From assembly GCF_001648175.1 (NCBI RefSeq), contig NZ_CP015243.1, forward strand, positions 2,418,001 through 2,482,000: 64,000 nucleotides of DNA. Direction: 5' to 3'. Under the pieces are notes generated by a model. It saw nothing but the letters and a program-made list of their open reading frames with translations. It made no database searches and had not been told where the DNA came from. The DNA comes from Halotalea alkalilenta. GTDB taxonomy: Bacteria; Pseudomonadota; Gammaproteobacteria; Pseudomonadales; Halomonadaceae. A program made the translations under genes and the position numbers. Shown here in pieces: positions 7,846 through 58,708 of this stretch; within the stretch, counting starts at the first letter, position 1; the number at the start of each line of letters is the position of its first letter.

Positions 7846-7906
7846 CAACGGCCACTGATCGTTTATCCAGTCGGTGGTCGTTTCACGTTTAGACCGAGGT
7901 GACTCA

Positions 7907-8149: not shown

Positions 8150-8248
8150 CTGTGCGCTGAAAGGCGCTGGGCCGGCGGCCTGGCGGCGACGACCGTTGGA
8201 GTGGATGGCGCTCGAATCCTGAACGAACTACGAATCTTGAACGAACTA

Positions 8249-8272
8249 AAAGGGACGCCTCGGCGTCCCTTT
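8249..8272 (+). terminator. Hairpin downstream of the 7907 gene (probable terminator)
   Basis: An 11-bp perfect inverted repeat, AAAGGGACGCC and GGCGTCCCTTT, with a TC centre. It starts 100 bp after the gene stop. The T tract after it is short (TTT), so Rho-independent termination is plausible but not certain. A near-identical hairpin lies 50 kb away, next to lexA (58709-58736). Confidence 0.6.
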
Positions 8273-8896: not shown

Positions 8897-9688
8897 ATGG
8901 CTACAGCAAGCAATGCGATTCCATGGGGGCCGGTCCGATCTACGCTGACCGAGAAGTTCAGTTTTGGCGACATCAAACAGATCGTCGGATACGGCGATCT
9001 GGACATGTCCCGTATCGCGCACCTCGAACAAAAGCCACAGAATGGCGCATCGAAGTCCCAGCTCCTGAGCGAGATCGACAAACAGGTCGGTGCGATGGAT
9101 GACAAGTGTCGTAACGCTTTTGTCTCCATCTGTTGCGAAGAAATGATGCGCCGCAAGTCCGATGTCATAGAGGAGCTGGATCGGGTCCTTTCGCGCGTGG
9201 GCTGGAAGTTCTCCGGTACGTCCCTGGTCCCTGTTGATATTTTCGATATCGCAGAACTGGCCGACATCCCCGAAGCGGCACATGCGGATATCCAGAAAGC
9301 GGCGAGCAGGCTGCGCGATGGCGACTTGAGTGGCGCTCTCTCGGCCGCCTGCGGAGCCCTGGATGCCGTTACCAGCGACATTTATGGTCGGTATCGCCTA
9401 GGCGATCCCGGAAAGGCATCGTTCCAGGAGCGTATCAAGAAGTCCATCGACGCCTTGGAGGTGAAAGACAGCTTGATGCGGGAACTGGCCGAGATCGGAT
9501 GGTCTGAATCTGACTACAAACCACTGTCCGCGAACATCGAAGGCTCATTGAATCAAGCAGCGTTCGTGATGCAGAAGCTGCGTTCCGATATGGGCGATGT
9601 CCACGGGACGAAGCCCGTCATCACAGCACTGGTGTATGACTCCATCAAATGGTCATCCCTGCTGCTGAGAGTCTTGGCGATCCGTTAG
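8897..9688 (+). CDS. Abortive-infection (Abi_C-like) protein
   Basis: 263 residues, ATG preceded by AGAGGA. The C-terminal third has the look of the Abi_C domain: a helix with ALSAACGALDAVTSDIYGRY, then SDMGDVHGTKPV followed by a long hydrophobic helix (TALVYDSIKWSSLLLRVL). The D-x-HG-x-x segment is the hallmark of this family. The N-terminus is not recognised. Abi_C proteins are linked to phage exclusion, but the biochemistry is poorly known. It is the last gene at this end of the ICE, in opposite orientation to the trb operon, and its 3' end overlaps the DUF2274 gene by 36 bp. This suggests a late insertion of a defence gene at the element border. Confidence 0.65.
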   Translation: MATASNAIPWGPVRSTLTEKFSFGDIKQIVGYGDLDMSRIAHLEQKPQNGASKSQLLSEIDKQVGAMDDKCRNAFVSICCEEMMRRKSDVIEELDRVLSRVGWKFSGTSLVPVDIFDIAELADIPEAAHADIQKAASRLRDGDLSGALSAACGALDAVTSDIYGRYRLGDPGKASFQERIKKSIDALEVKDSLMRELAEIGWSESDYKPLSANIEGSLNQAAFVMQKLRSDMGDVHGTKPVITALVYDSIKWSSLLLRVLAIR

Positions 9689-9934
9689 AGGGTGCCCGGG
9701 CGCTACACCCTTCCGCGCCACCGTGCCACGGCGAAACCCCCGATCCCCCGCCATGAAGGCTTCCAGCATGTGCGGGATCAGCGTCGCTGCATCGACAGCT
9801 TCGCCATAGGTTTGCGCATGGAGCTGTGCATAGCGGTCGAGGTCGGCTTTCAGGCTGGCAGGGCAGGCAAAGGTCAGCTTGACGCTGCTGCTGGACGGCA
9901 GCGGCCCCAAGCGCAACTTCTTGGTCGTGCTCAT
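9653..9934 (-). CDS. DUF2274 family protein, last gene of the trb operon
   Basis: 93 residues. The core KLTFACPASLKADLDRYAQLHAQTYGEAVDAATLIPHMLEAFM reads as a ribbon-helix-helix-like fold and matches the DUF2274 family regularly found just after trbI in Tn4371-type ICEs. The start overlaps the trbI stop by 4 bp (ATGA), so it is translationally coupled. The C-terminal tail (after DRGFRRG) overlaps the convergent abi gene and may have been replaced when that gene arrived. The role is unknown; a DNA-binding or accessory transfer role is inference. Confidence 0.8.
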   Translation of the reverse strand: MSTTKKLRLGPLPSSSSVKLTFACPASLKADLDRYAQLHAQTYGEAVDAATLIPHMLEAFMAGDRGFRRGTVARKGVAPGHPLTDRQDSQQQG

Positions 9935-11229
9935 CGTGATGTTCCTCGGTTGAACATGAGCGGCTGGTAGGGGCGAAGCGTCAAATCGCGCGCGACGATG
10001 ATCCGCACCGGCAGGCCCGGCCGACTGGTCAAGGTCGGCTGGATGTTCATGTTGCGCCGGGTCATCTCCTGGCCGACCTGATTGATACTGTCCTGCGCGC
10101 TGTCACGCCCGGCGATGATGATGCGATCGCCGTCCTGCCGGTTCTCCGGCGCGGCCAGTTCGGCACCGACGCCCAATAGCGTCGTCAGCGCCGCCCCGGC
10201 GAAGATGCGGCCCCAGTGGTAGTCCACGCCGTCTTCCAGGCCGGCATAGCCAGCCGGGTCGGTGCCGACCAGGTTGTCCAGTGTCAGCGAAGACGTGTCC
10301 GGCAGGATGATCCGGTTCCAGACGACTTGAACCCGGCTCTGGCCGTAGCTCACCTGGCTGTTGTAGCGGCCCAGGATGCGCGAACCCTGCGGGATCAGCA
10401 GGAAACGCCCAGTGGCCGTGTCATAGACCGGCTCCGTGACCGTGGCGATCACGTCGCCCGGCAAGTCCGACTTGATGCCCGTCACCAGCGCAGCGGCGAC
10501 CACCGTTCCGGCCATGACCTGATACGGCGAAGCCGGCAGGGTCAGGTTGCCGGAGTTACGGGTTTCCGTAGATGCGCCTTGCAGGAATGCCTCTTTCTGC
10601 TCCTGCCGGTTCTGTACGGCGGTCTGATCGGCGGGCTGGGCCGCCGTCGAGGCCGGCCCGGCCGCCATCGGATCGAAGGCCGCATTGGCAGAGAAGCCCG
10701 GCGCAGCGGCAACCTGCGACTGTGCCACCGGCGCGGCGCCTTGTGTGCCCGAGCGGAAGAACACGGACGAGGCGGCCGCTTCCTCGGCCTCCTTCAAGCG
10801 GGCCAGGCGCTCGGCCTCGGCCGGGTCGTGGCCGGGTGGCGCGTAGCCGACTGCCGGTTGCTGCTGCGCATTGACGATGGCCGGCCCAAGGTCGCCCGGC
10901 AGCGGCGGCCCCAGCTCGGGCACGTCGGGGGGCAAGGCGGGCGGCAGTTGGGAATAGTCGGTCGGCAGCCGCTCCAGCCCTTCGGAGCGCGACACGCGAT
11001 CGACGTTGTACAGCTCGGTGGATTCGCCAGCGCCGCGCCGCTGTGGTTGCAGCGACCACATCAGCGCGCCCAGCACGGCGACCGACAGGCTGCCGGCGAG
11101 GATCGCCAGCACGCGCCGGTTCAACCGTGTGACCGGGCGCGGCTGGGCGCGTAGCGTCACCGTTTCCGGGGCCACCTTGTCCGCCTGCGGGATGGCAAGG
11201 TCGGGAGTGTCGTCCTGGCTCATGCTCAA
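9931..11229 (-). CDS. trbI: TrbI, VirB10-like type IV secretion protein
   Basis: 432 residues. TrbI/VirB10 spans the periplasm and links the inner-membrane ATPases to the outer-membrane core of the mating channel. Seen: a basic cytosolic N-terminus; one membrane segment (about 41-60, RVLAILAGSLSVAVLGALMW); a proline-rich periplasmic linker (90-180); and the conserved C-terminal beta domain with LIPQGSRILGRYNSQVSYGQ, VQVVWNRIILPDT and DYHWGRIFAGAALTTLLG. Length is normal. ATGA overlaps join it to trbG upstream and DUF2274 downstream. Confidence 0.95.
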   Translation of the reverse strand: MSMSQDDTPDLAIPQADKVAPETVTLRAQPRPVTRLNRRVLAILAGSLSVAVLGALMWSLQPQRRGAGESTELYNVDRVSRSEGLERLPTDYSQLPPALPPDVPELGPPLPGDLGPAIVNAQQQPAVGYAPPGHDPAEAERLARLKEAEEAAASSVFFRSGTQGAAPVAQSQVAAAPGFSANAAFDPMAAGPASTAAQPADQTAVQNRQEQKEAFLQGASTETRNSGNLTLPASPYQVMAGTVVAAALVTGIKSDLPGDVIATVTEPVYDTATGRFLLIPQGSRILGRYNSQVSYGQSRVQVVWNRIILPDTSSLTLDNLVGTDPAGYAGLEDGVDYHWGRIFAGAALTTLLGVGAELAAPENRQDGDRIIIAGRDSAQDSINQVGQEMTRRNMNIQPTLTSRPGLPVRIIVARDLTLRPYQPLMFNRGTSR

Positions 11230-12218
11230 TTCCTCCGCGCCACGCCGTCGGTGCGCTCGATCCGCACCACGTCGCCCCTGTCCCCGCCCAGGCGCAGCTC
11301 GGCCGCGCCGAACAGCCGATCCACGATGTAATACGGCGAACGGAAACGGTAGTTCACCAGTTGTCCGTCACCTTGCGCGCCGATGACGAACAAGGGCGGC
11401 AGTTCGCCCTGGGCGATGCCGGCCGGGAACTGGATATAGACCTTCTCGCCGTCATCGAAGGCGCGCAGCGGTTTCCACGACGGATGGCTGCCGCTGATCG
11501 CGTAGCGGAAGCGGATGCGCTCCAGCGAAAGCCCGGTATCGACCGGCGCGGCCGTCTGTGCGGCCTGCACCTGGCGCTGCAAGGCCAGCATCCGGTCGCG
11601 CGGGTAGTCCCAGGAGACGGATGCCATCCATGCCCGCTCGGTCGAGGTCAGCTCCAGCAGATAGGTGCGGCGATTGGTGGTGATGACCAGATTCGTCTTG
11701 AGGCCCGAACGCACGGGCTTGACCAGCACATTGACGCGCAGCTCGCCGCCGCCGCCGCTGGACGTGTCGCCGACGATCCAGCGCACGGTATCGCCGGCGG
11801 CCACCGTCACCAGTTCCTCGCCGGGCTGGAGCGAAACCACGGTCACGCGCCCCGGCGCGGCATAGACTTGGTACAGCGCGCCGTCCGTGAACGGCCAGAC
11901 CTGGATCGCATTGACATAGCCCTCGCGTGTGGGCGCCACCCGCGCCTCCGTGTTGGCCTTGGACACGCGCACGGTTTCGTCGGCCGGTTCCGGTGCAGGC
12001 TCGGCGTCCTCGCCATCCGGCAGCGGTTTCAACTGCGCCGGCAGCGCCAACGGCTCGGGCAAGGCGACGACTTCCACCGGCGCCGGCGGCTCGGGGATGA
12101 ACTGCGCCTCCACCGGCTCGTCAAGGGGGATGACGGGCGGCGGCTTGCCCTGCGTGGCGCAGCCCGCCAGGGCCAGCAGCATCAAAGGGAAAGCGTAAAA
12201 ACGGACAAGCGATTTCAT
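11226..12218 (-). CDS. trbG: TrbG, VirB9-like type IV secretion protein
   Basis: 330 residues from the ATG at 12218; the longer open frame to 12842 is a shadow of trbF. The N-terminus is a lipoprotein signal, LMLLALAGC, followed by a proline-rich stretch. VirB9/TrbG forms part of the outer-membrane core complex with VirB10 and VirB7. Family features are the N-terminal VRVSKANTEARVAPTREGY and VQPGEELVTVAAGDT-like region, and the C-terminal YAISGSHPSWKPLRAFDDG then KVYIQFP and VDRLF. The start overlaps the trbF stop. Confidence 0.94.
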   Translation of the reverse strand: MKSLVRFYAFPLMLLALAGCATQGKPPPVIPLDEPVEAQFIPEPPAPVEVVALPEPLALPAQLKPLPDGEDAEPAPEPADETVRVSKANTEARVAPTREGYVNAIQVWPFTDGALYQVYAAPGRVTVVSLQPGEELVTVAAGDTVRWIVGDTSSGGGGELRVNVLVKPVRSGLKTNLVITTNRRTYLLELTSTERAWMASVSWDYPRDRMLALQRQVQAAQTAAPVDTGLSLERIRFRYAISGSHPSWKPLRAFDDGEKVYIQFPAGIAQGELPPLFVIGAQGDGQLVNYRFRSPYYIVDRLFGAAELRLGGDRGDVVRIERTDGVARRN

Positions 12219-45607: not shown

Positions 45608-46762
45608 ATGAGAGAAGAGCAGTCAGATTTAGCCCAGATGGTCCGCCTGGCTTTGGCCGAGCAGAGTGAGGATGTGCGCCTGTTCACGGCGCGGCTGGTC
45701 CGCAAGTACCGAGGGACGGCGCCCGACTTGGCCGAGCAGCTCGAACTGTTCCTGAAGTCGAAGCCAGTACGCAGTGTCTCTCCCATGCGCAAGCTGTCGC
45801 CTCAGCCGCCAACGGCCCACGCCTTGCCGGTTGACGACGAATCCCGTCTCTCTCTCCTGAAGGTGTTCAAGGACGAACCGACGAGAGATGCGCCGCTGCT
45901 GTCCAGCGATGTCGAGGATTCACTGGGGCAACTCATCGCCGAGCGCCGGCAGAGCGATCGACTTCAGGCCATGGGGCTGACGCCGACCCGCTCGGCCATC
46001 TTTGTGGGGCCGCCCGGGGTCGGCAAGACACTCACGGCCCGCTGGCTGGCCGCGCAATTGAAGGTGCCGCTGTACGTGCTCGACCTGACAGCCGTGATGA
46101 GCAGCCTGCTGGGCAAGAGCGGCACCAACCTGCGGACGGCCATCGATTTCGCCAAGCGCGAGCCTTGCGTGCTGCTGCTGGACGAAATCGACGCTATCGC
46201 CAAGCGACGCAGCGATGACAGCGACGTAGGCGAACTCAAGCGCCTGGTCACGGTGATCCTGCAAGAAGTCGACGAATGGCCTGCCAGCAGTGTATTGCTG
46301 GCGGCCACCAACCACCCGGAACTGATCGATCCGGCGCTGTGGCGACGCTTCGACCTGGTGGTCCAGTTCAAGACGCCCGATGAACAGGCGGTCAAGGAAG
46401 CCATCAAGCGATTCCTGGGGCCGGACTACGCCCTTTTTGCCCGTTGGATCGACATCCTGGTGTTTGCATTCGCCGGCCATTCGTTCAGCGACATCGAGCG
46501 CGACGTGCAGCGCTTCCGGCGTGCCGTGGCGCTGGGCACGACCACCGACGCTGATCTGGTCGAAGACTTCATGAAGGCGCGTGCTTTGGCGCTCGATAGG
46601 CAGGGCCGCATCGACCTGGCAGTGATGCTGGCTAAGCAGACCCGCCTGTCCCAGCACACTGTTTCCGACATCACCGGGGTGAGCCGGGACACGATCCGAA
46701 AGTACACCAATGAGACGTCTGCGGTACGAAAGGCCGCACAACGGAGAAAGGCTGACGCATGA
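45608..46762 (+). CDS. AAA+ ATPase with C-terminal HTH, paired with S8 protease
   Basis: 384 residues. Walker A GPPGVGKT (134-141), Walker B LLLDEID (189-195), sensor-1 Asn in AATNHP (235) and arginine-finger-like RRFD (246-249) make a complete classical AAA module of the FtsH/spastin type. Residues 1-125 are helical and unassigned. Near the C-terminus, LSQHTVSDITGVSRDTIRKY looks like a helix-turn-helix. Its stop overlaps the start of the S8 peptidase gene (ATGA), so the two proteins are made together and probably interact: the ATPase could remodel substrates for, or regulate, the protease. Such ATPase-subtilase pairs recur in defence islands. Confidence 0.9.
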   Translation: MREEQSDLAQMVRLALAEQSEDVRLFTARLVRKYRGTAPDLAEQLELFLKSKPVRSVSPMRKLSPQPPTAHALPVDDESRLSLLKVFKDEPTRDAPLLSSDVEDSLGQLIAERRQSDRLQAMGLTPTRSAIFVGPPGVGKTLTARWLAAQLKVPLYVLDLTAVMSSLLGKSGTNLRTAIDFAKREPCVLLLDEIDAIAKRRSDDSDVGELKRLVTVILQEVDEWPASSVLLAATNHPELIDPALWRRFDLVVQFKTPDEQAVKEAIKRFLGPDYALFARWIDILVFAFAGHSFSDIERDVQRFRRAVALGTTTDADLVEDFMKARALALDRQGRIDLAVMLAKQTRLSQHTVSDITGVSRDTIRKYTNETSAVRKAAQRRKADA

Positions 46763-48984
46763 GCCAAACCAATTTCCTGATCGGTCGTGGCGAGCTGCTG
46801 ACCCATGACATCGTCGGCCCGAAGCGCATGCCAGGCAAGGCCGAGGTCTACACGTTCGCGCAGGCGCGGGAGCGAATGGTTCCTCAGTTCCGCAGTGCAA
46901 GCAAGGCGCTGGACGAGCTATCTGCTGACGCTTGCCCGGGCGACTTCGCGGTAGCCCGGCTGATGATGAATCCCAGCTTCATCGCGCGCTCGTATTTTCC
47001 GACAGGACTGCTGCGTAGTACGGGACTGGAGTCCATCGGGAGCCGTACCGTCAAGGTCAAGCCGCAGGCCTGGACCCGCAAGGGGCAGCCGCATGAAACC
47101 ACAACGACCGAACTGTTTGTCGCCGGCAAGCGCCAGGCTTTCCGCAACCTCTCCCGATGGACGGAAACCATTGAGGCGGAATCCGACGAGGGCGAAGATC
47201 TTGCCCACATCGAACAGTTTGCCGCCTTTGCGCCAGCAGAGCGAATCGTGGGCCTCGGCGGCCCGAAGGATCGCTTTTTCGAAGTAGGCCTACATCTGCT
47301 ACCGGATGAAGACCCGGGCCTAATCCAGAAGGCTTTCGTGAAGTTCGCGCAGCGGGAAGGCGTGAAGGTCCACAGTGAAGTCGATTTCATCGCCGGCAAT
47401 CTGTGGTTCGTGCCGGTCGAGGGCAAGCCGCGCGACATTGAGCGGTTGGCCAGCTTCGCCTTCGTGCGGGTGATCCGTCCCGTGCCAAAGCTGCGTGGTA
47501 TCCGTCCCTTGCAACGCAGCGGTGGGCCCTCAGTGGGATGCAGCCTCCCCACCGAACAGGCCCTTTCATCCGAACCTCGTGTCGCCATCCTGGACGGTGG
47601 CCTGCCCAAGCACCATCCGATCGGCCCCTGGCTGCGCTCGTACCGCAAGCTCGACGAAGACGCCGACGATGATCCGGACGGTCCGGAGCATGGCTTGGGC
47701 GTGACCTCGGCCGTGCTGTTCGGTCCGATCCAGCCCAACGGTACGGCCGGCAGGCCGTTCGCCCCGGTGGACCATCTGCGCGTGCTGGACCAGGAGGCGG
47801 GCGGCGAAGATCCATTGGAGTTGTATCGCACACTCGGTCTCATCGAGCAGGTTCTGCTGTCGAGGTCCTACGAGTTCATCAACCTGAGCCTGGGCCCCGA
47901 TCTCGAAGTGGAGGACCGGGAAGTCCACGCTTGGACGTCCGTTATCGACGAGTTGCTCAGCGACGGCGACACGCTCATGACGGTGGCCGTTGGCAATAAC
48001 GGAGACCGGGACCGCGAGCTCGGCTACAACCGCGTGCAGGTTCCATCGGATTGCGTGAATGCGCTCGCGGTCGGCGCGGCCGACGACACCGATGCTGGCT
48101 GGGCACGCGCGCCCTACAGCGCGATCGGGCCGGGCCGCAGCCCTGGCGTTATCAAGCCAGACCTGATGGCGTTCGGTGGCAACCCAGCAGCCAAATACTT
48201 TCATGTGTTGGCGCCGAACGTGAAGCCGGTGCTGACGCCGCAGTTGGGTACCAGCTTCGCGGCTCCGTACCTGCTGCGTAGCGCGGTCGGCGTACGCGCG
48301 ATCCTGGGCGGAGATCTGACGCCACTCGCCATCAAGGCCCTTCTGGTTCACGCCGCCGATCCTGGCGAGCATGATCCGGTCGAAGTGGGTTGGGGCAAGA
48401 TTCCTGAGGACACCCTCGACATTATCACCTGCCCGGATGGTGTGGCCCGCGTGGTCTACCAGGGCGAGCTCAAGCCCAGTAAGTACTTGCGTGCCAGCCT
48501 GCCGCTGCCCAAGGAAGGACTGCTCGGCAATGTGCGTCTGAAGGCGACGTTCTGCTATGCCTCACCCACCGATCCGCAGGATGCCGCGGCCTACACCAAG
48601 GCCGGCCTCGAAGTCGTCTTCCGGCCCAACGACGAGAAGATCAAGGACGGCAAGAGCAACGCGGATACCAAGGGCTTCTTCGACTTGAAGAAGTTCGCCA
48701 CCGAGCAGGAGCGGCGTTCGGATCAGGGCAAATGGGAAACTGTGCTGCACGGGGCCAAGACCTTCCGTGGCTCCAGCCTCAAGAACCCCGTTTTCGACAT
48801 CCACTACAACGCCCGCGACGGCGGCGGCCGGGCCACCACTGGTGCCGAGAAGATCCGCTATGCACTGATCCTCTCGGTCGAGGCCCCGAAGCATGCTGAT
48901 CTCTACAACGACATCTTGCGTGCCTATGCCAAAACCCTCGTGCCGATCCAGCCGCAGGTGTCCTTGCCGATTCGTGTTCGGTGA
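46759..48984 (+). CDS. Subtilisin-like S8 family peptidase
   Basis: 741 residues. The catalytic triad is visible: Asp in AILDGGLP (279), His in EHGLGVTSA (311), Ser in GTSFAAP (499), plus the oxyanion Asn in AVGNNGD (about 413). No signal peptide is seen, so it is probably cytosolic, unlike most subtilases. Residues 1-270 form an N-terminal domain with no known fold; residues 560-741 form a C-terminal beta-rich part. It is translationally coupled to the AAA+ ATPase. It may act as a toxic protease unleashed by infection; this is inference. Confidence 0.93.
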   Translation: MSQTNFLIGRGELLTHDIVGPKRMPGKAEVYTFAQARERMVPQFRSASKALDELSADACPGDFAVARLMMNPSFIARSYFPTGLLRSTGLESIGSRTVKVKPQAWTRKGQPHETTTTELFVAGKRQAFRNLSRWTETIEAESDEGEDLAHIEQFAAFAPAERIVGLGGPKDRFFEVGLHLLPDEDPGLIQKAFVKFAQREGVKVHSEVDFIAGNLWFVPVEGKPRDIERLASFAFVRVIRPVPKLRGIRPLQRSGGPSVGCSLPTEQALSSEPRVAILDGGLPKHHPIGPWLRSYRKLDEDADDDPDGPEHGLGVTSAVLFGPIQPNGTAGRPFAPVDHLRVLDQEAGGEDPLELYRTLGLIEQVLLSRSYEFINLSLGPDLEVEDREVHAWTSVIDELLSDGDTLMTVAVGNNGDRDRELGYNRVQVPSDCVNALAVGAADDTDAGWARAPYSAIGPGRSPGVIKPDLMAFGGNPAAKYFHVLAPNVKPVLTPQLGTSFAAPYLLRSAVGVRAILGGDLTPLAIKALLVHAADPGEHDPVEVGWGKIPEDTLDIITCPDGVARVVYQGELKPSKYLRASLPLPKEGLLGNVRLKATFCYASPTDPQDAAAYTKAGLEVVFRPNDEKIKDGKSNADTKGFFDLKKFATEQERRSDQGKWETVLHGAKTFRGSSLKNPVFDIHYNARDGGGRATTGAEKIRYALILSVEAPKHADLYNDILRAYAKTLVPIQPQVSLPIRVR

Positions 48985-49038: not shown

Positions 49039-49818
49039 ATGCCGAAACCCTTGAGAAGCAAGGACAAAAACGGGGAGCCGTTCGCGCGACCACCGGAGAT
49101 CGACGCCTGTTTGCAGAGGCTGGAGTCGATCGATGCCGCGACACGCCTGCAGGCCTTCACCGTCGCGTCGAGGAAGAGCGACGGCTATGTGCCATCGGAA
49201 GCACTGACGTATTTCCTGCGGCGCGCCCATGCGACGGGCGCAAAGGACGAGTTCAAGCAGCTTTTCGGACTGCTCATAAAGCGCGTCGGGCAGTCTCTGT
49301 TTGCATCGATCCCGGACTCTCGTATGGCCGGGGCACAAGACATCCGAGAAGAGGTCATGAGCCGATTCGCTGAGCGAATTGCCAAGGACTGCAGCGGCCG
49401 CTTCGCTATGCTGGATTTCTTTGAAGTGCGGTTCGACCTAGCATTCGCCCGGTTCCGCAAGACCGTGTTGAGGCAGATTGGTCCGGCCTCGGTCCTTACA
49501 GTGCCGCTGTCCACGGATGACGATGAGGGTCAGGACATTTCACCGGAGGTCGAGGCAGCAGCGGCCGACTTCCTCGGAGGCGACCCTCAAAAAATTGACG
49601 ACCCGGCTTTCCGGTTGGAGTTGGACGCTGCGATTGACGCATTACCAGACGATCAGAGACGGGTCGTTGGCTTGCTACGGCAAGGCTTCCAGATCGACTC
49701 GAAGGACCCGAACATCATGACTATCGCGAAAATGCTCCAGTGCGATGAGAGAACCGTGCGCAATCGCCGCGACCGTGCCTACAAGACCCTCAGGTCTGTT
49801 CTGCAGGAGGACGCATGA
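49039..49818 (+). CDS. Sigma-70-like (region 4) protein
   Basis: 259 residues. The C-terminus is a clear sigma region 4 HTH: LDAAIDALPDDQRRVVGLLR, then MTIAKMLQCDERTVRNRRDR and AYKTLRSVL. Residues 85-150 (DIREEVMSRFAERIAKDCSG, LDFFEVRFDLAFARFRKTVL) look like a diverged region 2. The first 80 residues are unassigned. It could direct RNA polymerase to a special promoter set or act as a sigma-like DNA-binding regulator. Its stop overlaps the next gene by ATGA, the usual layout of sigma/anti-sigma pairs. Confidence 0.8.
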   Translation: MPKPLRSKDKNGEPFARPPEIDACLQRLESIDAATRLQAFTVASRKSDGYVPSEALTYFLRRAHATGAKDEFKQLFGLLIKRVGQSLFASIPDSRMAGAQDIREEVMSRFAERIAKDCSGRFAMLDFFEVRFDLAFARFRKTVLRQIGPASVLTVPLSTDDDEGQDISPEVEAAAADFLGGDPQKIDDPAFRLELDAAIDALPDDQRRVVGLLRQGFQIDSKDPNIMTIAKMLQCDERTVRNRRDRAYKTLRSVLQEDA

Positions 49819-50408
49819 GTACGTCAAAGCCTTTCGCTGCAGACGAGGAATCTGTGCTGATGGCGTTCTCCATGGAGCCCAACCATGGCCGGGAAACGCT
49901 TGAACGCTACATTAGGGAGTACCCGCAGCATGCGACCGCGCTGATCGACTGTTCGATCGATCTGCTTTATGAGGCGCCAGAAGGCGATGTTCCGGCGACC
50001 GAAGTGCCGGACAGCGCGGTTGATAAGGCCTGGCAGCGATTCGAGCGGGCTGTCCAGCAGCCCGATGCGGAGGTTGCGAATCCGTTCACCAAGCTCAATA
50101 CGAGCAGCTTCAAGTCGCTCGCACGCAGCCTGGACGTCAGTAATCTCTTCCTCATGCGGGTGCGCGATCGGGCCATTCGTACTGCCACCATTCCTGCCCG
50201 ATTCGTCGAGAAGCTTGCGTCAGAACTGGGTGTCACCGTTCAAGCTGTGAACGCATACCTGCTGGGGCCACCGGGCATGGTTTCCGGACACGCTTTTCGG
50301 TCAAATGTGAAGCCGAGTGTGGGCGAGCAGATCACGTTCGACCAAGCTGTCGCGACTTCACAACTCACGCCGGAACAGCAGGCGACGCTAAAGGCACTGT
50401 CGGACTGA
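49815..50408 (+). CDS. Small putative regulator coupled to the sigma-like protein
   Basis: 197 residues. No family recognised with certainty. The middle (FKSLARSLDVSNLFLMRVRD then RAIRTATIPARFVEKLASEL) has the look of an XRE-type helix-turn-helix region, followed by GVTVQAVNAYLLGPPG. No membrane segment. Position between a sigma-like gene (4-bp overlap) and an ImmA/IrrE-helicase gene (3 bp gap) makes it a candidate antagonist of the sigma-like protein and substrate of the ImmA-type protease, as in the ImmR/ImmA pair of ICEBs1. Confidence 0.7.
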   Translation: MSTSKPFAADEESVLMAFSMEPNHGRETLERYIREYPQHATALIDCSIDLLYEAPEGDVPATEVPDSAVDKAWQRFERAVQQPDAEVANPFTKLNTSSFKSLARSLDVSNLFLMRVRDRAIRTATIPARFVEKLASELGVTVQAVNAYLLGPPGMVSGHAFRSNVKPSVGEQITFDQAVATSQLTPEQQATLKALSD

Positions 50409-50411
50409 ACG

Positions 50412-53400
50412 ATGGACGCCACCGAGGCCGCTCGACTGGAAGCAGAACGCCTGCACCGTGCGAACGTCGCGGCCGGCGGAGATCCGACCCGGCCTTTAGT
50501 GTTTGCGCTTCAGGAAGCCTCAAATCGCGGCTTGGATGTGTACGCGCTGCGAGAAGGAGACCCACAGCTTAAGGGAGGCAAAGCCACGTTCGACTGTCAG
50601 GCTGGAGGCATCCTCTACGAGGATCGTGGATCGGACTTCGAGCGTGCGTTTTTGATTGCACACGAACTCGGCCATGTCGTGCTGGAAGGTGGCACACTCG
50701 ACGTGGTAACGGTGTATGTCGAGTCCGACCGATCGCTGGAGGACGCGCCGGTGGGCGTCGATCGTGTCCTTGACTACGGGGCGCGCGAGCGACGTGAAGT
50801 GAAGATGGACCTCTTCGCGCGCGAGTTCCTGCTGCCGCGCTCCGTGTTGCGCGACTTGCATATCTACGACGGGCTGGGATCCGACGCGATCGCGACGCGC
50901 TTCGGCGCACCGCTCGCTGTGGTGCAGCAGCAGCTCCTGGATGCACTGCTGCTGCCACCCGTCGGGGAGCCGCACCCCGCGGGCGTCCGCGCGGCGGCGG
51001 GTCCGCTCACCCCAGACCACACGCAGGCTCAGGCGGCCGCACATAGGGGCTTGGCATTCCAGCTGCAGGCAGGGCCGGGCACCGGCAAGACGCGGACGCT
51101 TGTTCGCCGCATCGAAGTGTTGCTTGCGGATGGCGTCGATCCCACCACGATCCTGGTACTCACTTTCTCCAACAAGGCGGCCAATGAACTGTGCGAGAGG
51201 ATTGCTGCGAGAAACCCTGTTGCGGCGGCAGCGATGTGGATTGGCACATTCCACGCATTCGGCCTGGACATCGTTCGCCGTTTCCATGACCGACTCGGAC
51301 TGCCCGCAGACCCGCGTCTGATTGACCGGACGGAGGCCATTGAACTCCTGGAGGACGAGTTTCCGCGGCTCGACCTGAAGCACTATCGCAATCTCTGGGA
51401 CCCAGCCCTGGATTTGAGCGACATGCTGAGCGCGATCTCACGCGCCAAGGATGAGGTCATCGATGCTGCGGGTTATCGCGCCCTCGCGCAGTCTATGGCG
51501 ATCCAGGTGGGGGCCGACCAGGACGCCGCGGTCCGCGCGCAGAAGTGCCAGGAGGTCGCCATGCTCTTCGAGGCGTACGAACGGCTGCTGACCGCGCGCC
51601 ACCTACTGGACTTCGGTGACCTGGTAGCGCTGCCGGTGCGTCTTGTCGAGGGTAGCGCCGAGGTCAGGGACGCACTACGTGCTCGCCATGAGCATGTGCT
51701 GGTAGATGAATACCAAGATGTCAACCGCGCCTCGGTCCGGCTCCTGAAGGCCATCGTCGACGGCGGCCGCAACCTGTGGGTTGTCGGCGATGCACGCCAG
51801 TCCATCTACCGCTTCCGCGGCGCCTCCGCGACAAACATCGCACGCTTTGCGATCGATTTTCCCGGCGCGCAGGCCGCGCAGCTTGGCATTAACTATCGCT
51901 CCGACGAGCGGATCGTCAATGTGTTCACCGAGTTCGCGCGCGGCATGCAAGCATCCGCCGGTGCGTTGCCGCTGAACCTGCAGGCCGAACGTGGCTCTAC
52001 AGGAGCAGGGGTTGAGCTTCGCGTTGCCGGATCGCCTAGCGATGAAGTCTCCGCGATTGCAGCGTCGATCACGGCCCTGCACGAGCAGGGTATTGCCTAT
52101 GGTGACCAAGCGGTGCTGTGCGCATCCAACGCGCGCCTGAACGCCATTGCCGAAGGCCTTGAGGCCAGGGGCATTCCCGCGCTGCACTTGGGTAGCTTGT
52201 TTGAGAGGCCGGAAATCAAGGATCTGCTGGCGTTGCTCTCGCTGGTGACCGACCCGCGGGCGGCCGCGATGGTGCGCGTGGCAACCATGGCTCGGCACCA
52301 AATGCCCTTGAAGGATGTCATGCGGGTCATTGAGCGGCTGCGGACGACGAATCCAGCTTCGCTGGATTGGTTGGCAATACACGCCGGAGTGGATGGCCTG
52401 GCAGACGGCAGTCGAGAAGCGCTCTCTCGCCTGTCCGCGCTCTTTGCAGGTGTGAACGCATCGACCGACCCCTGGCTCTTACTTGCTGGATGGACGATCG
52501 ATGGTCTCGGACTCGCGAAGACGCTTTATTTGGCTGGTGATCCGCAGAGTCGCATGCAATGTCTGGCTGTCTGGCAGTTCTTGAACTTCTGTCGCCGGCA
52601 GCCAAGAGGCCAAGGCATGCCAGTGGTTCGCCTGCTTGATCGCGTCAGGCGGTTAGTTCTGCTCTCTGAGGATCGTGGATTGAGCCAGTTGCCCCGCAGT
52701 GCCGAGAACATCGAAGCAGTGCGCCTGATGACCATCCACGGAAGCAAGGGGCTGGAGTTCGATGTCGTTCATTTACCTGGCATGGTAACGTCCGGCCTAC
52801 CGCGCAACAACGTGCCGCCGCGTTGTCTTCCGCCGGACGGTCTGATCCATGGTTCGGAGGGACTGACCGGCATCGAGGCGGTGAAGGCCGGCCACGACGA
52901 GGAAGAAGAGTGCTTGTTCTTCGTAGCGCTTTCGCGAGCGCGCGATAGGCTGCAGCTGTATGCCTACGCCAGGCAGGCAGATGGTCGTACGCGTAGCGCC
53001 TCCAAGTTTATCGCCCCGATCGACCGACTCCTTGTTCGTCCGGTACCGGTGCCGTTGCAAGCCGGCTCGACATCGACGGGCACGCCGCTCGCCATCACAT
53101 GGCAAGGGCGTCCCCAATGGACCGACATCCAGGTCAACCTCTTCGAGCGGTGCCCGCGCCGCTTCTTGTACACGCACGTGCTGAGGCTTGGAGGTCGGCG
53201 AACTGAAACCGCATTCATGAAGATGCACAACGTCGTGAGCGACGTGTTCGATTGGTTGAAACGGGAGCACGAGACGACAAGTCCCACGGTCGACGAGCTG
53301 GCAGCACGCTTCGAGGAGGCCTGGTGCTCCAAGGGTGCGACAGAGCATGGATATGCGGAGGACTACCGCCGCATCGGCAAGCGGCTCGTCGATTTCCTCA

Positions 53401-53840
53401 TCGAGAGCCGGAATCGTGACGTGGCCGCGCCGGCGCCACCGATCTCGCTGGGTTGGGCCGAGGGCGAGATCCTCGTAACCCCGGATGGTGTAGCTCACGG
53501 AGCCGGTGGCCGGGTCACGGTGCGGCGCGTCATGACGGGCAAGCAGCGCTCGAACGCCTTCGATGATATTGAGTACACAATTCTCCAACTCGCCGCTGTC
53601 CAGGCTTATGGACCACATGCGCAGGTCGAGGTGACCTACCTCACCAGCGAAACCATCCAGCCGATGGAAATCACGTCGCGCAAGCTGGAATCCAGGCGCG
53701 AGAAGCTGCAGACCTTCCTTCAGGCAATGCAGGCCGGGCAGTTCCCCTCTAAGCCCGAGGCTCGTAGCTGTCCGCGCTGCCCGCACTTCTTCCTCTGCGG
53801 CGAGTTGCCCGGAGGGGGGTGGGTACAAGAAAAACTTTGA
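50412..53840 (+). CDS. ImmA/IrrE metalloprotease - UvrD helicase - AddB/Cas4-like C-terminal domain fusion
   Basis: 1142 residues. Residues 1-190: ImmA/IrrE peptidase, with zinc motif HELGH (84-88) and the KMDLFAREFLLPRSVL helix. From about 198: superfamily 1A helicase, with Walker A AGPGTGKT (220-227), motif Ia VLTFSNKAANEL, motif II VDEYQD, motif III VVGDARQSIYRFRG, motif IV INYRS, motif V TIHGSKGLEF, motif VI VALSRARDRL, all complete. C-terminus (about 900-1142): one Cys in FERCPRRF and three in SCPRCPHFFLC, the iron-sulfur cluster layout of AddB/Cas4-type PD-(D/E)XK nucleases. The usual catalytic Asp is not obvious (VRRVMTGK where an acidic residue is expected), so the nuclease may be inactive. 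A DNA-damage- or phage-sensing protease-helicase is a reasonable hypothesis. Confidence 0.9.
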   Translation: MDATEAARLEAERLHRANVAAGGDPTRPLVFALQEASNRGLDVYALREGDPQLKGGKATFDCQAGGILYEDRGSDFERAFLIAHELGHVVLEGGTLDVVTVYVESDRSLEDAPVGVDRVLDYGARERREVKMDLFAREFLLPRSVLRDLHIYDGLGSDAIATRFGAPLAVVQQQLLDALLLPPVGEPHPAGVRAAAGPLTPDHTQAQAAAHRGLAFQLQAGPGTGKTRTLVRRIEVLLADGVDPTTILVLTFSNKAANELCERIAARNPVAAAAMWIGTFHAFGLDIVRRFHDRLGLPADPRLIDRTEAIELLEDEFPRLDLKHYRNLWDPALDLSDMLSAISRAKDEVIDAAGYRALAQSMAIQVGADQDAAVRAQKCQEVAMLFEAYERLLTARHLLDFGDLVALPVRLVEGSAEVRDALRARHEHVLVDEYQDVNRASVRLLKAIVDGGRNLWVVGDARQSIYRFRGASATNIARFAIDFPGAQAAQLGINYRSDERIVNVFTEFARGMQASAGALPLNLQAERGSTGAGVELRVAGSPSDEVSAIAASITALHEQGIAYGDQAVLCASNARLNAIAEGLEARGIPALHLGSLFERPEIKDLLALLSLVTDPRAAAMVRVATMARHQMPLKDVMRVIERLRTTNPASLDWLAIHAGVDGLADGSREALSRLSALFAGVNASTDPWLLLAGWTIDGLGLAKTLYLAGDPQSRMQCLAVWQFLNFCRRQPRGQGMPVVRLLDRVRRLVLLSEDRGLSQLPRSAENIEAVRLMTIHGSKGLEFDVVHLPGMVTSGLPRNNVPPRCLPPDGLIHGSEGLTGIEAVKAGHDEEEECLFFVALSRARDRLQLYAYARQADGRTRSASKFIAPIDRLLVRPVPVPLQAGSTSTGTPLAITWQGRPQWTDIQVNLFERCPRRFLYTHVLRLGGRRTETAFMKMHNVVSDVFDWLKREHETTSPTVDELAARFEEAWCSKGATEHGYAEDYRRIGKRLVDFLIESRNRDVAAPAPPISLGWAEGEILVTPDGVAHGAGGRVTVRRVMTGKQRSNAFDDIEYTILQLAAVQAYGPHAQVEVTYLTSETIQPMEITSRKLESRREKLQTFLQAMQAGQFPSKPEARSCPRCPHFFLCGELPGGGWVQEKL

Positions 53841-53936
53841 TCGACCTTTCCGGTCTGGCGCTGGGCTGCGATTGACCAAGTAAGGGGCTAGAAAACCTGC
53901 AATCCCGCAGATGACGGCTCCCTATGAGGCAATCAA

Positions 53937-54866
53937 ATGCAAACCAAAACCACCAGCGGTGATGACCGCTTCGATGTCGAAGATGTTGCTGCGGCGATCC
54001 GCGAAGGCCGCAGCCTGCGGCCAGCGGCGCTCTACCGGATCGTCGTCCTGGACGACCAGCTCCACGAACGTCACGTCGATCTCTCCGATCCGGTGCCGAC
54101 CGGGCGCCAGATCCTCCAGGCCGCCGGATCGCGCCCGGCCGATGAGTACAGCGTTTATGCGATTTTGACCTCTGGCGAGTTCGAGGACCTGCGTCTGGAC
54201 GAAACCTACGATCTGCGCGGCCGCGGTGCGGAACGTTTCGTCATCTTCCAGACCGATCGCGCGTTCAAGTTCACGATCGATGACCGGCAACTGGAGTGGG
54301 GCAAGCCCAGCATCAGCGGCCGCGTGCTCAAGGCGCTGGCCGGTGTCCCGCCAGAGACCTACGACGTCTATCTCGAAGTGCGTGGCGGGGGCCAGGACAT
54401 TCTGATCCGCGACGGCGACCTGATCGATCTGGGTAAGCCGGGCATCGAGCGCTTCATCACGCTGATCCGTGACACCACTGAGGGGCTGCTCACGCTGCCC
54501 GAAGCGGACCAGCGCTATCTGAGCAGCCATGGCGTGGCTTTCGAGATGGTGAGCGACGGTGCGCACACGGGCGTCATCTTCAAGCAGTTGCCGCTGCCCT
54601 CCGGAAAGCTCAACCACGCCACGGCCGATGTGCTCGTTCTCCTGCCGCCGGGCTATCCCGATGTTGCGCCGGACATGTTCTATTGCGACCCGTGGCTGAC
54701 GCTGCAAAGCGTTGGGCGCTACCCGACCTGCGCTGACCAGGCCCACGCGTTCCAGGGCCGCAGCTGGCAGCGCTGGTCGCGCCACAACACAGCGTGGCGC
54801 CCGGGCATCGACGGCCTGCACACTATGCTCAAGCGCATCGAGCACGCCCTGGCGGAGGCGAAGTGA
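53937..54866 (+). CDS. Tandem ubiquitin-like domains fused to a prokaryotic E2-like domain
   Basis: 309 residues. Residues about 31-106 and 109-180 are two ubiquitin-like beta-grasp repeats of the multiubiquitin type (YRIVVLDDQLHERHVDLSDP; FKFTIDDRQLEWGKPSISGR). Residues about 185-309 match the prokaryotic E2 family E: LPLPSGKLNHATADVLVLLP then PGYPDVAPDMFYC and the C-terminal WQRWSRHNTAWRPGIDGLHT. Candidate catalytic cysteines are C250 and C265; which is active is unclear. No terminal GG tail is present. The TGATG stop-start overlap with the E1-JAB gene shows one operon. Confidence 0.88.
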   Translation: MQTKTTSGDDRFDVEDVAAAIREGRSLRPAALYRIVVLDDQLHERHVDLSDPVPTGRQILQAAGSRPADEYSVYAILTSGEFEDLRLDETYDLRGRGAERFVIFQTDRAFKFTIDDRQLEWGKPSISGRVLKALAGVPPETYDVYLEVRGGGQDILIRDGDLIDLGKPGIERFITLIRDTTEGLLTLPEADQRYLSSHGVAFEMVSDGAHTGVIFKQLPLPSGKLNHATADVLVLLPPGYPDVAPDMFYCDPWLTLQSVGRYPTCADQAHAFQGRSWQRWSRHNTAWRPGIDGLHTMLKRIEHALAEAK

Positions 54867-56272
54867 TGTCGCCGGCCGCTCTGGACATCGTCCTGCTGGA
54901 GCCGCACGAGGCGGCCCTGCGCTTGCTGCTGCAAAGGGAAAACGGTGCCGAGGCGTCCGCCTACGTGCTGTTCGGCAAGGCTGACGTCTCGGCAGACCCC
55001 TGGTCGGGAGTGCCTCGCACCAGATTGATCTCGCACGAAGTCATCCCCGTCGCGGCCGATGAAATGGTCTCCGCATCGCCTGTCCATGTCACATGGTCCA
55101 CCCGAGGCTTCATGCGCATTCTCGGCATCGCGAAAGAACGGGGCTTGGTTGCGGGCCTGGTACACACGCATCCGAACGCGGCAGCGTTCTTCTCCGACCA
55201 GGATGACCGAAACGAGTCGGAGCTGGCCCGGACGACGTTCAACAAGGGCGTTTCCGGCCTAGCCAGCATGGTGTTCGGCCGCGATGACGCCATCGCGGGC
55301 AGGCTCTGGACTGCACCCGGCAAGACGGTCATGGCATCCTCGATCTCGCTGGTAGGAAGCCAGATCAAGATCGCGCGCACGGTGGCTGCGGCTGACGAAG
55401 ATCAATTCCTGGCGCGGCAGGCCGCGCTCTTCGGCCAAGGGTTCAATCCAGTCGTGCGCGGGCTGCGGGTGGGTGTCGTAGGGGGCGGCGGCACGGGCAG
55501 TGCTGTCGCGATGCTATTGGCGCGGCTGGGCGTCGGCTTTCTGGGGCTGGTGGACAAAGACACCATTGATGTCACCAATCTCAACCGCGTGCATGGCTCG
55601 CGCACCGCAGATGTGGACGCCGGCTTGGCCAAGGTGGACATCCTCGCGCGCGAGATTCGCGCCGCGGGTCTCGGCACCCAGGTCGTCACCAAAGAGGAGT
55701 GGGTCGGCCATCCTGATCTGCGCGATCTGCTGCGCTCCTGCGACGTGCTGTTCGGCTGTACCGACGACCATCAGGGGCGGCTGACGCTCAACCGCCTGGC
55801 GCACTACTACGGCATCCCGCTGATCGATGTGGGCCTGCGCATGCGCGCGGCACGCAGCGGCGCGGACTACGACATGACGGGGCGCGTGTCGACGATTGGG
55901 CCCGGCAAACCTTGTCTCATGTGTCTGGGAGTAGCCGATCCGCGCCGCGCTGCGGCCGAAGGACTCCGGCGCAGCGACCCGGCCGAGTTCGAGCGGCGTA
56001 AGGCGGAAGCCTATGTGGACGGCGGCGGCGACCCGGCGCCTGCGGTGGTCACGTTCACCACGGCCATCGCCTGCGCGGCCGTCGATGAACTCATTCAGGG
56101 ACTGACCGGTTTTCGCGGTCCTGCGGGCATGTCGCACAACAGGATTCGCCGCTTTGACCGCGTAGAGGATCGCACCATGACCTGCCGACCCTTGGCGTCT
56201 TGCCCGGTTTGTGCCAGCCAGGCGAGCTGGGGACGCGGCGATGTCAACCCATTTCTTGGCGTTATCGGATGA
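54866..56272 (+). CDS. JAB deubiquitinase-like peptidase fused to ThiF/E1-like enzyme
   Basis: 468 residues from the ATG at 54866 that shares bases with the previous stop. Residues about 5-150: JAB/JAMM metalloprotease, with HTHPNAAAFFSDQD giving the zinc motif H-x-H-P-x6-S-x-x-D (100-113). From about 195: E1-like adenylation domain, with GVVGGGGTGSAVAMLLARLG (nucleotide loop), DKDTIDVTNLNR, FGCTDD, and zinc cysteines in KPCLMCLG and SCPVCAS. The fusion would activate the ubiquitin-like partner and trim or remove it. It belongs to the bacterial ubiquitin-like (Bub-type) operons. Confidence 0.92.
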   Translation: MSPAALDIVLLEPHEAALRLLLQRENGAEASAYVLFGKADVSADPWSGVPRTRLISHEVIPVAADEMVSASPVHVTWSTRGFMRILGIAKERGLVAGLVHTHPNAAAFFSDQDDRNESELARTTFNKGVSGLASMVFGRDDAIAGRLWTAPGKTVMASSISLVGSQIKIARTVAAADEDQFLARQAALFGQGFNPVVRGLRVGVVGGGGTGSAVAMLLARLGVGFLGLVDKDTIDVTNLNRVHGSRTADVDAGLAKVDILAREIRAAGLGTQVVTKEEWVGHPDLRDLLRSCDVLFGCTDDHQGRLTLNRLAHYYGIPLIDVGLRMRAARSGADYDMTGRVSTIGPGKPCLMCLGVADPRRAAAEGLRRSDPAEFERRKAEAYVDGGGDPAPAVVTFTTAIACAAVDELIQGLTGFRGPAGMSHNRIRRFDRVEDRTMTCRPLASCPVCASQASWGRGDVNPFLGVIG

Positions 56273-56619: not shown

Positions 56620-57317
56620 CGGCACCATGTCTGGCCGATACGCAATCGACGCTGTCGTCGGCAAAGGTGCAGCCTTTGCCAAGCTCCGGGAGAAATCCAC
56701 CATCCGCTGGTCGACTGCTGTTTAAGATCAGATTCCGAATATTCGTCCTTGAGGTTCAGTGACTCCAACTCATACGAGCTCTTGATTGCATCGTCAGGCT
56801 TTGGCGGTGCGCTCATAGAAGTGGCTTGCCGATCTGCCATTCGAGCTGGCGCACCGCGCAGCGCCTCGGCCTCGTAAAACCGACGGGTATGGTCATCCTT
56901 GACCGCCAGCAGCCGGACATAGGCCGACCACAGCAACGTGAAGACCAGGGCCAGTTCGGAGAGGTCAAATTTCCGAGACAGCGTCTCGGAAATTGCCTCA
57001 AGGGGGTAAGCGGCAAAGAAGCGCCGCATGTTTTCCAGGTTGTCCGGGTTGAACCCGCGCCCAAAGCGCGCCGTCAGACCGGCGGACAACCGCGCCATCA
57101 ACTGCTCGCCGTAACCGGCCCGCCGCCTGCCTTCTGCTCGGCTTCGACGATCCGGCGGCCAATCTCTCAATAGCTGGTCGTCATCAGCGCATTGACACTG
57201 CCCGCCGCTGCTTGGCGCGCGGCATCCAGCAGTTCCACGATGCCGCCGTGGATGCCAGCATAGCCAGCCCCGGTAAGGCGGCGGGTTCCCTACTGCTGCG
57301 GGCGTCTTCCTTGTCAT
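56620..57317 (-). pseudogene. Decayed DUF1016/YhcG-type nuclease gene
   Basis: The start MTRKTPAAVGNP at 57317 overlaps the integrase stop (ATGA). The frame is then broken. Recognisable YhcG pieces are AGYGEQLMARLSAGLTARFG, then NPDNLENMRRFFAAYP, SAYVRLLAVKDDHTRRFYEA in one frame, RQLEWQIGKPLL in another, and SLNLKDEYSESDLKQ near 56740. The C-terminal nuclease domain is missing. Several frameshifts and a deletion make it nonfunctional. Intact YhcG genes commonly follow integrases in ICEs and islands. Confidence 0.75.
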
Positions 57318-58513
57318 GCTGTCACCTCCATAGAACGGGACGCCCCGGTAATCGCCAGCCGCCGATTCGCCACCAGCTCGGCGGCATCCCGCACCGGCTT
57401 GTCCTCGGTATGTACGTAGTGCATAAACATCGCCACGGTCTTGTGACCTGTGAGCTTCATGCCCACTTTGGTTGGCACGCCTGAGTTGGCAATGTCGGTC
57501 GTCGCTCGATGGCGGATGCCGTGCGTGCCGACGTGCGGCACGCCGGCGGCCTTGAGTACGCGCTTCCAACCGCCGTAGTGTTCTCCATGCGTCAAATGCC
57601 GGGCCGGGTCGTTGGGCGATGGCAGGACGTAGGGGCAGCCTTCCCGGCGCGGCGCCGTCGAAAGCAGCCGATAGGCTTCCTCGCTCATGGGTTTGGAAAT
57701 GCCGCCGGTCTTGCTGTCGGGCCAGACGACGCGGCGCTTCTCCAGATCAACCCAGTCCCATTCGAGCGGGCAGATTTCGGAGCGGCGGGCGGCAAACTCG
57801 AATTGCAGGCGGATCGCCAGCGGGATGACGTAGTTCTCCAGCCCTTCTGCCTCCAGATGCTCCAGATGCCGGAAGATCCGCACCAGTTCATCGTCCACGA
57901 TGAGCCGGGTTTCCTTGCCGGGCGGGAACATCGGGACGTGGCGGCACGGATTGGTGCCGTCCGGGCGCAGCCCCCACACTTCGGCTAGGTTGAACATCTT
58001 GCGCAGCACGCCGAAGGTGCGGTTGGCCTCTGCCGGCTTGTGGGCCAGCTTCTTCATCAGCGCCGCCACGTCCGGGCGCTTCACATCCTGCACCTTCATC
58101 CGGCCCATGATCGGGATGATGCAACGGTCGATAACGCCCTGGTAGCCGCGCTGCGTGCTGGGCTTGTTGCGCTGCTTGGAGTAGTCCTCCATGAAGGTGC
58201 TGCAATACTCCTTCATGGTCGGTGCCTTGCGGGCGGCATTCTTGGCCGCGCTGGGATCGCCGCCCCGGCGAACCTCGGCCAACCACTCCTGCGCCATGAA
58301 GCGGGCCTGATCGACCGTCAGTTCCCCGTACTGGCCCAGGGCGGGCTTGCGGCGCTCGCCGGCGTTCGTGCGGTACTGGAGCATGAACACCTTGCGGCCT
58401 GCCGGGGTGATCTTGCACAGGAAGCCGGGCACCACGGTGTCCCGGAGTTCGACGGCCTGCGCCTGGGGCTTGGCGGCATCGACGGCGGACTTGGTGAGTT
58501 TGATTCTTGCCAT
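57314..58513 (-). CDS. int: Tyrosine recombinase/integrase of the ICE
   Basis: 399 residues from MARIKLTKSAVDAAKPQ at 58513; a TTG start 22 codons upstream is less likely. N-terminal DUF4102-type arm-binding domain (about 1-95), core-binding domain (100-190), then the catalytic domain with Arg in AARRSEI (243), HGIR (H331, R334), GHKTV (H357) and the nucleophile Tyr in FMHYVH (366). All catalytic residues are intact. It inserts and excises the ICE by site-specific recombination. It lies at the lexA-side end with its promoter facing the junction, as usual. Confidence 0.95.
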   Translation of the reverse strand: MARIKLTKSAVDAAKPQAQAVELRDTVVPGFLCKITPAGRKVFMLQYRTNAGERRKPALGQYGELTVDQARFMAQEWLAEVRRGGDPSAAKNAARKAPTMKEYCSTFMEDYSKQRNKPSTQRGYQGVIDRCIIPIMGRMKVQDVKRPDVAALMKKLAHKPAEANRTFGVLRKMFNLAEVWGLRPDGTNPCRHVPMFPPGKETRLIVDDELVRIFRHLEHLEAEGLENYVIPLAIRLQFEFAARRSEICPLEWDWVDLEKRRVVWPDSKTGGISKPMSEEAYRLLSTAPRREGCPYVLPSPNDPARHLTHGEHYGGWKRVLKAAGVPHVGTHGIRHRATTDIANSGVPTKVGMKLTGHKTVAMFMHYVHTEDKPVRDAAELVANRRLAITGASRSMEVTA

Positions 58514-58708
58514 GATGACTCCTCGGAACCCCGGTTTCCAAGAGCCACATGGGAGCCACGCGACCGGAAGCCGGGTCAAGTTTCGGAAAGCACCGGCATA
58601 TGATGGACGCGCCTAAGTCCTTGATAAACCTTCCATAGCGGGCTTGGGCGTAGTCCAGCGAAGTGCCGGGCTGGAGTCATCGTCAAACAAAAAAGGTTTG
58701 TCATTAAT

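Follow-up and report, generated by a model that had tools for sequence, protein, structure and literature searches.

A sigma-like gene, a small-regulator gene and a protease-helicase fusion gene as a candidate control module of ubiquitin-like immune operons

Gene content of the locus

The window analyzed here, a 64,000-nt stretch of the Halotalea alkalilenta genome (NZ_CP015243.1, positions 2,418,001 to 2,482,000, forward strand), carries three adjacent genes, hereafter the trio, which encode a putative sigma factor, a small regulator, and a protein joining an ImmA/IrrE-type (M78) protease to a UvrD helicase and a nuclease-like domain. Directly 3′ of them lies a ubiquitin-like conjugation cassette, and a pair of promoter-like elements, P1 and P2, falls within the sigma gene and before the cassette, respectively. 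All of the following features are on the + strand.

49039..49818, +: gene for an extracytoplasmic function (ECF)-like sigma factor, 259 aa, from profile matches and homolog naming
49608..49635, +: P1, two-box promoter-like element TTTCCGGT-N15-CGATT within the sigma gene, 180 bp 5′ of the small gene
49815..50408, +: small regulator gene, 197 aa, from profile and structural model; its product is proposed to act as an anti-sigma factor or a repressor and to be cleaved by the protease
50412..53840, +: gene for the M78 (ImmA/IrrE) peptidase, UvrD helicase and four-Cys PD-(D/E)XK-like fusion, 1142 aa, from domain matches
50661..50675, +: HELGH zinc-protease motif, residues 84-88 of the fusion
53847..53873, +: P2, two-box promoter-like element TTTCCGGT-N14-CGATT preceding the ubiquitin-like cassette
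53937..54866, +: Multi_ubiq (two matched stretches) fused to Prok-E2_E, from domain matches
54794..56272, +: JAB (JAMM-like motif HTHPNAAAFFSDQD) fused to ThiF/E1; the start codon is uncertain and the listed open reading frame (ORF) overlaps the preceding one

The three reading frames lie where a preliminary description of this DNA had placed them, with the ATGA overlap between the sigma and small genes and the 3-bp gap before the fusion gene. The trio itself is therefore real, but the boundary drawn at its end was too narrow, as the system continues into the Multi_ubiq-E2 (53937-54866) and E1-JAB (54794-56272) genes. Because the trio is conserved as a set across several phyla, chance grouping can be excluded, and trio and cassette almost certainly form one system.

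Intact and degenerate motifs in the fusion protein

The fusion matched Peptidase_M78 (9.4e-12), the N- and C-terminal UvrD families (4.1e-60 and 3.3e-34) and PDDEXK_1 (1.3e-12). In an alignment of its relatives, in which the window protein is counted four times (twice among the 64 rows given below) and one sequence, L093, reads out of frame across the nuclease-like domain, the HExxH motif is intact in 73 of the 75 rows with residues at that position, so that the protease domain shows no sign of inactivity at the motif level. The complete UvrD helicase that had been read from the window is likewise present, its Walker A and DE(Y/F)QD motifs being kept in 77/77 rows. The “Cys-rich nuclease-like domain” held up in part: all four cysteines are present in every row reaching them (63-64 rows), but the catalytic acid of (D/E)xK is absent in 64/64, with arginine in its place in 44. 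Because this acidic residue is missing throughout, the PD-(D/E)XK-like domain has most likely lost nuclease activity. The pattern of kept and lost motifs therefore describes a helicase with an N-terminal protease and a C-terminal domain that probably does not cut. In RecB/AddB-type nucleases the four cysteines serve an Fe-S cluster; the C-terminal domain of the fusion is probably a DNA-binding, non-cutting domain and perhaps also carries such a cluster.

Conservation of the trio and its neighboring cassettes

Relatives of the fusion were retrieved at 80 loci. The 12 numbered L104-L115 match it in the helicase part alone and were excluded, so that 68 (L036-L103) remained for analysis. Of these 68, 65 have the small gene and 61 a sigma gene recognized by profile, and neither gene is present in the 12 helicase-only loci; this bears out the co-occurrence in other genomes that the preliminary description had proposed as its check. 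Spacing is tight, with the small gene at most 120 bp from the fusion frame in 64/65 loci (266 bp in L103) and the sigma frame at most 60 bp from the small frame in 61/61. No small gene was found in L058 or L063, whose contigs start inside the fusion gene, or in L095, the sole locus that has upstream sequence yet lacks it. The L095 fusion (7854-11234) has HHxxH for HExxH, with no sigma gene, small gene or cassette found nearby, possibly reflecting decay after loss of the system. L103 (7902-14050), from an Armatimonadaceae metagenome-assembled genome, apparently encodes the ImmA and UvrD parts as two genes, followed by genes for a WGR-PARP protein and an HHH protein in place of the ubiquitin-like cassette.

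Across 398 sampled genomes of the phylum, the ImmA-helicase fusion occurs in six among the matches listed (a diverged fusion may be missed), and the small family (E ≤ 1e-4) in exactly the same six; the five fusion genomes of this sample other than that of the window also carry a ubiquitin-like cassette. Homologs of the small gene were present in 75 plasmid records, and on an Acinetobacter plasmid the RefSeq names run, in gene order, sigma-70 factor, hypothetical, UvrD-helicase, multiubiquitin, ThiF and DUF6527.

Contigs end beside the fusion in six loci (L043, L052, L065, L068, L079, L084), leaving 62 with flanking sequence. A ubiquitin-like cassette adjoins the fusion in 56 of these, 38 of Multi_ubiq/E1 type and 18 of Bil type. 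Among the Multi_ubiq loci, L069 and L090 have a Bil-like E1, and in L044 and L086 the cassette is divergent and upstream. The Bil-type cassettes have four genes, with BilB (4.5e-64) and BilD (1.5e-170) tested on L100 and the other 17 recognized by profile. At two Methylobacteriaceae loci (Methylobacterium/Methylorubrum) with a diverged sigma gene, the trio instead stands beside a divergent operon resembling a cyclic-oligonucleotide-based anti-phage signaling system (CBASS), comprising a cyclase, an E2 and a patatin/phospholipase, with a Tle1-like gene as well (L055:2115-6593, tested; L071:2253-6656, same ORF sizes and order). In a tree of the 62 fusions the cassette types cluster, with at least three label changes for Multi_ubiq and at least six for Bil when rows with no or unseen cassette are counted as their own label. 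Loci from Planctomycetota, Verrucomicrobiota and Myxococcota are placed among those from Pseudomonadota.

Paired promoter-like elements

A two-box consensus, TT[A/T]CCGGT-N15-CGATT, recurs in the gap preceding the cassette (P2) of many loci, with a second copy (P1) located within or upstream of the sigma gene. A strict search of both strands of 2.46 Mb of window and locus DNA returned 57 matches, of which 28 are P2 sites in the gap (including one from L091, a locus with a broken fusion frame), 23 lie inside the sigma frame, 5 lie at most 400 bp before the sigma gene, and a single one, in L039, is elsewhere, on the opposite strand and with a 20-base spacer. The element is thus asymmetric and on the coding strand in 56/57 matches. 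The spacer is 15 bp in 43/46 P1 and 34/42 P2 sites scoring >12; at that score P1 is upstream of the sigma gene rather than inside it in 12 loci. Matrices learnt at one site also score the other: a matrix learnt at P2 exceeded the 99% control quantile at P1 in 33/58 loci versus 1/232 controls, and one learnt at P1 did so at P2 in 42/58 loci versus 3/232 controls. The third base is identical at P1 and P2 in 39 of the 40 loci where both score >12; as related loci are not independent, a p-value for this agreement would be optimistic. The element was absent at the cassette in six ubiquitin-like loci without the trio.

Where P1 overlaps sigma codons F191-I199, codon choice departs from the codon use of the fusion genes of the same loci. 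Arginines are CGG in 35/42 (expected 10.3), alanines GCG in 39/42 (expected 14.7) and isoleucines ATT in 30/40 (expected 10.9), and the preceding codons end in T in 39/61 (expected 11.2). After thinning of the 61 sigma genes to 43 (<60% identity), the tails were 4e-9, 7e-10 and 1.4e-5. This codon choice therefore indicates selection on the DNA itself within the sigma gene.

Eight loci fetched later carried P2 in seven cases and P1 in six, two of each being found via a looser pattern only; in the five of these whose fusions are 41-74% identical to those already used, P2 and P1 were each found in four, and L135 was without both. As is the hallmark of ECF sigma factors, the two-box element recurs before the trio’s own operon and before its proposed target, and very probably P1 and P2 are promoters of the trio’s sigma factor, which would bind at both.

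The sigma gene and the small regulator

The sigma protein matched Sigma70_r4_2 (1.4e-5; 25.0 bits, cut-off 25.7) and TIGR02937 (3.5e-7; 30 bits, cut-off 42.9), and a profile of 55 relatives matched solved sigma factors at approximately 1e-5, mostly in region 4; the top match of that profile was another helix-turn-helix (HTH) protein, GerE (6.5e-6). The Acinetobacter plasmid homolog is named “sigma-70 family RNA polymerase sigma factor” in RefSeq. These matches are consistent with the sigma-like identity first proposed for 49039-49818.

The predicted structure of the small protein is all-helical, with an XRE-type HTH at approximately residues 85-153. Upon comparison with the PDB, this HTH resembled those of DdrO, CapH and ImmR, with a weak match at the sequence level. 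The modeled fold supports the idea of a protease substrate, and equally a DNA-binding role; on balance we favor the small protein being both the inhibitor of the sigma factor and the substrate of the protease.

Other regulators in the same position

We compared the trio with the neighbors of six related cassettes that lack it, four of which have assignable regulators (one via weak matches) and two of which, L140 and L147, have none assigned. The regulator neighboring the L138 cassette is a WYL protein (PF13280, 1.4e-12), and L139 has an HTH gene and an M78 gene (3e-11 and 2.4e-24). In L148 a single HTH-M78 protein lies one ORF from the cassette, and in L149 there is an ATPase with a protein showing a weak MarR match. 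The regulators of L138, L139 and L148 resemble CapW and CapH+CapP, while that of L149 is possibly CapK+CapS. According to the accessible part of PMC13373217, CapW, CapH+CapP and CapK+CapS control immune operons, Bub, Bil and CBASS among them, in response to DNA damage. The trio shares the hallmark of such controllers, in that its neighbors are immune operons of several types and related cassettes have other controllers in its place.

Flanking genes and cassette leaders

Two further features of the window flank or separate the genes described above.

45608..48984, +: IetA + IetS anti-phage pair, directly 5′ of the trio
53874..53936, +: cassette leader, from P2 to the cassette; predicted folding z -1.22

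IetAS-like genes also lie upstream of the trio in L036, L037 (where ietS is in two pieces), L038, L040, L079, L092 and L098, a recurrent pairing, seen in two branches far apart in the fusion tree; IetAS is probably a separate system that repeatedly adjoins the trio. Just 3′ of the cassette, on the minus strand, is a tyrosine integrase (57314-58579), because of which the island may be mobile; no tRNA was found in the window.

The leaders between P2 and the start codon of the ubiquitin-like gene (that of the window and 27 others) are predicted to be stabler than shuffled sequences, with a mean z of -2.55 over the 28 and 25 below -1. By eye, the outer stem of several leaders appears to include the ribosome-binding region, and translation of the cassette may therefore also be gated by the leader fold.

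A model for the trio and its alternatives

We propose that the trio controls an adjoining ubiquitin-like immune operon by way of a protease, coupled to a helicase, that would free a dedicated sigma factor; from the sequence comparisons above we give this reading a probability of about two in three. At rest, the small HTH protein would silence the ECF-like sigma factor, either as an anti-sigma factor or by blocking the promoters. The UvrD motor and the four-Cys dead-nuclease domain would engage abnormal or single-stranded DNA arising from phage replication or DNA damage, a trigger that we consider somewhat more probable than not. Engagement would activate the M78 protease, which would then destroy the small protein. 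The freed sigma factor would direct RNA polymerase to P2 (53847), turning on the conjugation cassette, and to P1 (49608), yielding extra small protein and sensor-protease, by which the switch might be reset or amplified. A protease-regulator switch of the ImmA/ImmR or CapP/CapH pattern is kept as the best model; the modeled HTH is ImmR/CapH/DdrO-like, and the promoter-like elements suit a dedicated sigma factor. The preliminary description had suggested such a proteolytic switch, which fits the co-occurrence, the intact HExxH, the HTH model and the promoter-like elements; the ubiquitin-like immune cassette and the degenerate nuclease had not been foreseen.

Several observations weigh against this model. 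With the learnt matrices, P1 was below threshold in 25/58 loci and P2 in 16/58, some boxes being visibly different, and two more strict matches fell in an excluded, helicase-only locus, L106. Two of the eight later loci were scored with the looser pattern, which also finds chance matches elsewhere, and the fusions of three of the eight (L132, L133, L141) are 94-99.9% identical to ones already used. No recognizable cassette was found near the fusion in 4/62 loci (L074, L076, L095, L103). In the sigma protein, region 4 is matched and region 2 only weakly, and in L044, L055, L071 and L086 an ORF of 187-226 aa occupies the sigma position: that of L055 matched TIGR02937 at 1.7e-4 and that of L044 another sigma model at 0.044, that of L086 matched no sigma model, and hhalign profile comparison of A4 with the L044 and L055 proteins gave no match, so that whether these are diverged sigma factors or other proteins is unproven. 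A search of the control regions of these four loci found no two-box element. By eye, the divergent intergenic regions of two of them (L044:2363-2518 and L086:4233-4375), which also lack it, share an inverted repeat, TTGCCA...TGGCAA.

The repressor-like HTH of the small protein suits an alternative in which the same module operates with the small protein as a DNA-binding repressor of the CapH, DdrO or ImmR type, the two-box element being or overlapping its operator and the sigma factor serving basal expression only. The coding-strand asymmetry of the element and its mostly fixed 15-bp spacer, as in sigma promoters, speak against an operator, as does the failure to find it in the four sigma-replaced loci, where a small gene of this family is nevertheless kept, and we regard this alternative as unlikely. 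It is more improbable still that the ImmA-UvrD fusion is itself a defense effector, a GajB-like anti-phage helicase whose protease attacks phage or host proteins, with the sigma and small genes controlling its expression. UvrD-like defense helicases do exist and match the helicase part of the fusion (RTasHel 1.8e-71, GajB 1e-65), and the trio adjoins IetAS; however, the (D/E)xK acid is lost throughout, the fusion tracks the small gene one-to-one in the 398 genomes among the matches listed, and some genomes have WYL or HTH/M78 regulators in its slot. A housekeeping regulator of stress or protein quality, whose cassette would tag damaged proteins after DNA damage, is very improbable given the Bil-type cassettes at 18/62 loci, the CBASS-like operon beside two, and the patchy occurrence of the trio (6/398 genomes among the matches listed, and also plasmids), even though protection from phage by Bub operons had not been shown according to the accessible part of PMC13373217.

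What keeps costly immune operons silent, and what turns them on, is still an open question. The controllers covered by the accessible parts of PMC13373217 and PMC10904395 act by derepression. If the dedicated-sigma model is true, the trio, which occurs across several phyla and on plasmids, would activate transcription through a sigma factor and include a DNA motor of its own, and the two promoter-like elements would predict the targets of the switch from sequence alone. At even odds, in our estimation, it would represent a fourth family of immune controllers and the first to use its own sigma factor, in which a helicase-borne protease removes the inhibitor, DNA motion is converted into Ubl or Bil transcription, and the hidden P1 rebuilds the switch.

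Comparison with known systems

Our searches of open-licence papers turned up no description of the trio, which the papers defining Bub operons may nonetheless list. Among the known systems closest to it is CapH+CapP (also ImmR/ImmA and DdrO/PprI), with an M78-type metallopeptidase bearing an intact HExxH beside an HTH regulator of similar modeled fold. Both stand before immune operons, and cleavage activated by single-stranded DNA, as reported for PprI and CapP in the accessible part of PMC10904395, may serve as a model for the trio. Unlike CapP, the trio protease does not stand alone, being fused to UvrD and the probably dead four-Cys nuclease-like domain, and unlike the two-gene CapH+CapP, the trio adds a sigma factor with a matching pair of promoter-like elements, so that it would activate its target instead of simply derepressing it. 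CapW (WYL) and CapK+CapS occupy the same type of slot before ubiquitin-like and CBASS operons and respond to DNA damage, as described in the accessible part of PMC13373217; the three trio proteins, in contrast to these controllers, showed no match to a WYL, STAS or GHKL domain.

With its polyubiquitin-like (polyUbl) protein, E2-fold domain and JAB-E1, the window cassette fits the row for class 6e polyUbl operons in the accessible part of Iyer 2006 (PMC1779556), and shares with these and with Bub operons a PolyUbl-E2 fusion and a JAB-E1; the words “helicase” and “sigma” never occur in the main text of that paper. BilABCD is listed as an anti-phage pathway in the accessible part of PMC13373217. 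The trio is linked to it through the Bil-type cassettes, while three clear Bil operons in genomes without the trio have other neighbors.

Those ECF sigma and anti-sigma pairs that regulated proteolysis separates are encoded by adjacent genes, and their sigma factors act at two-box promoters. The trio likewise combines a sigma gene with an adjacent gene for its proposed inhibitor, two-box elements and a proposed proteolytic release. It differs in having no membrane anti-sigma protein, its protease being fused instead to a DNA motor.
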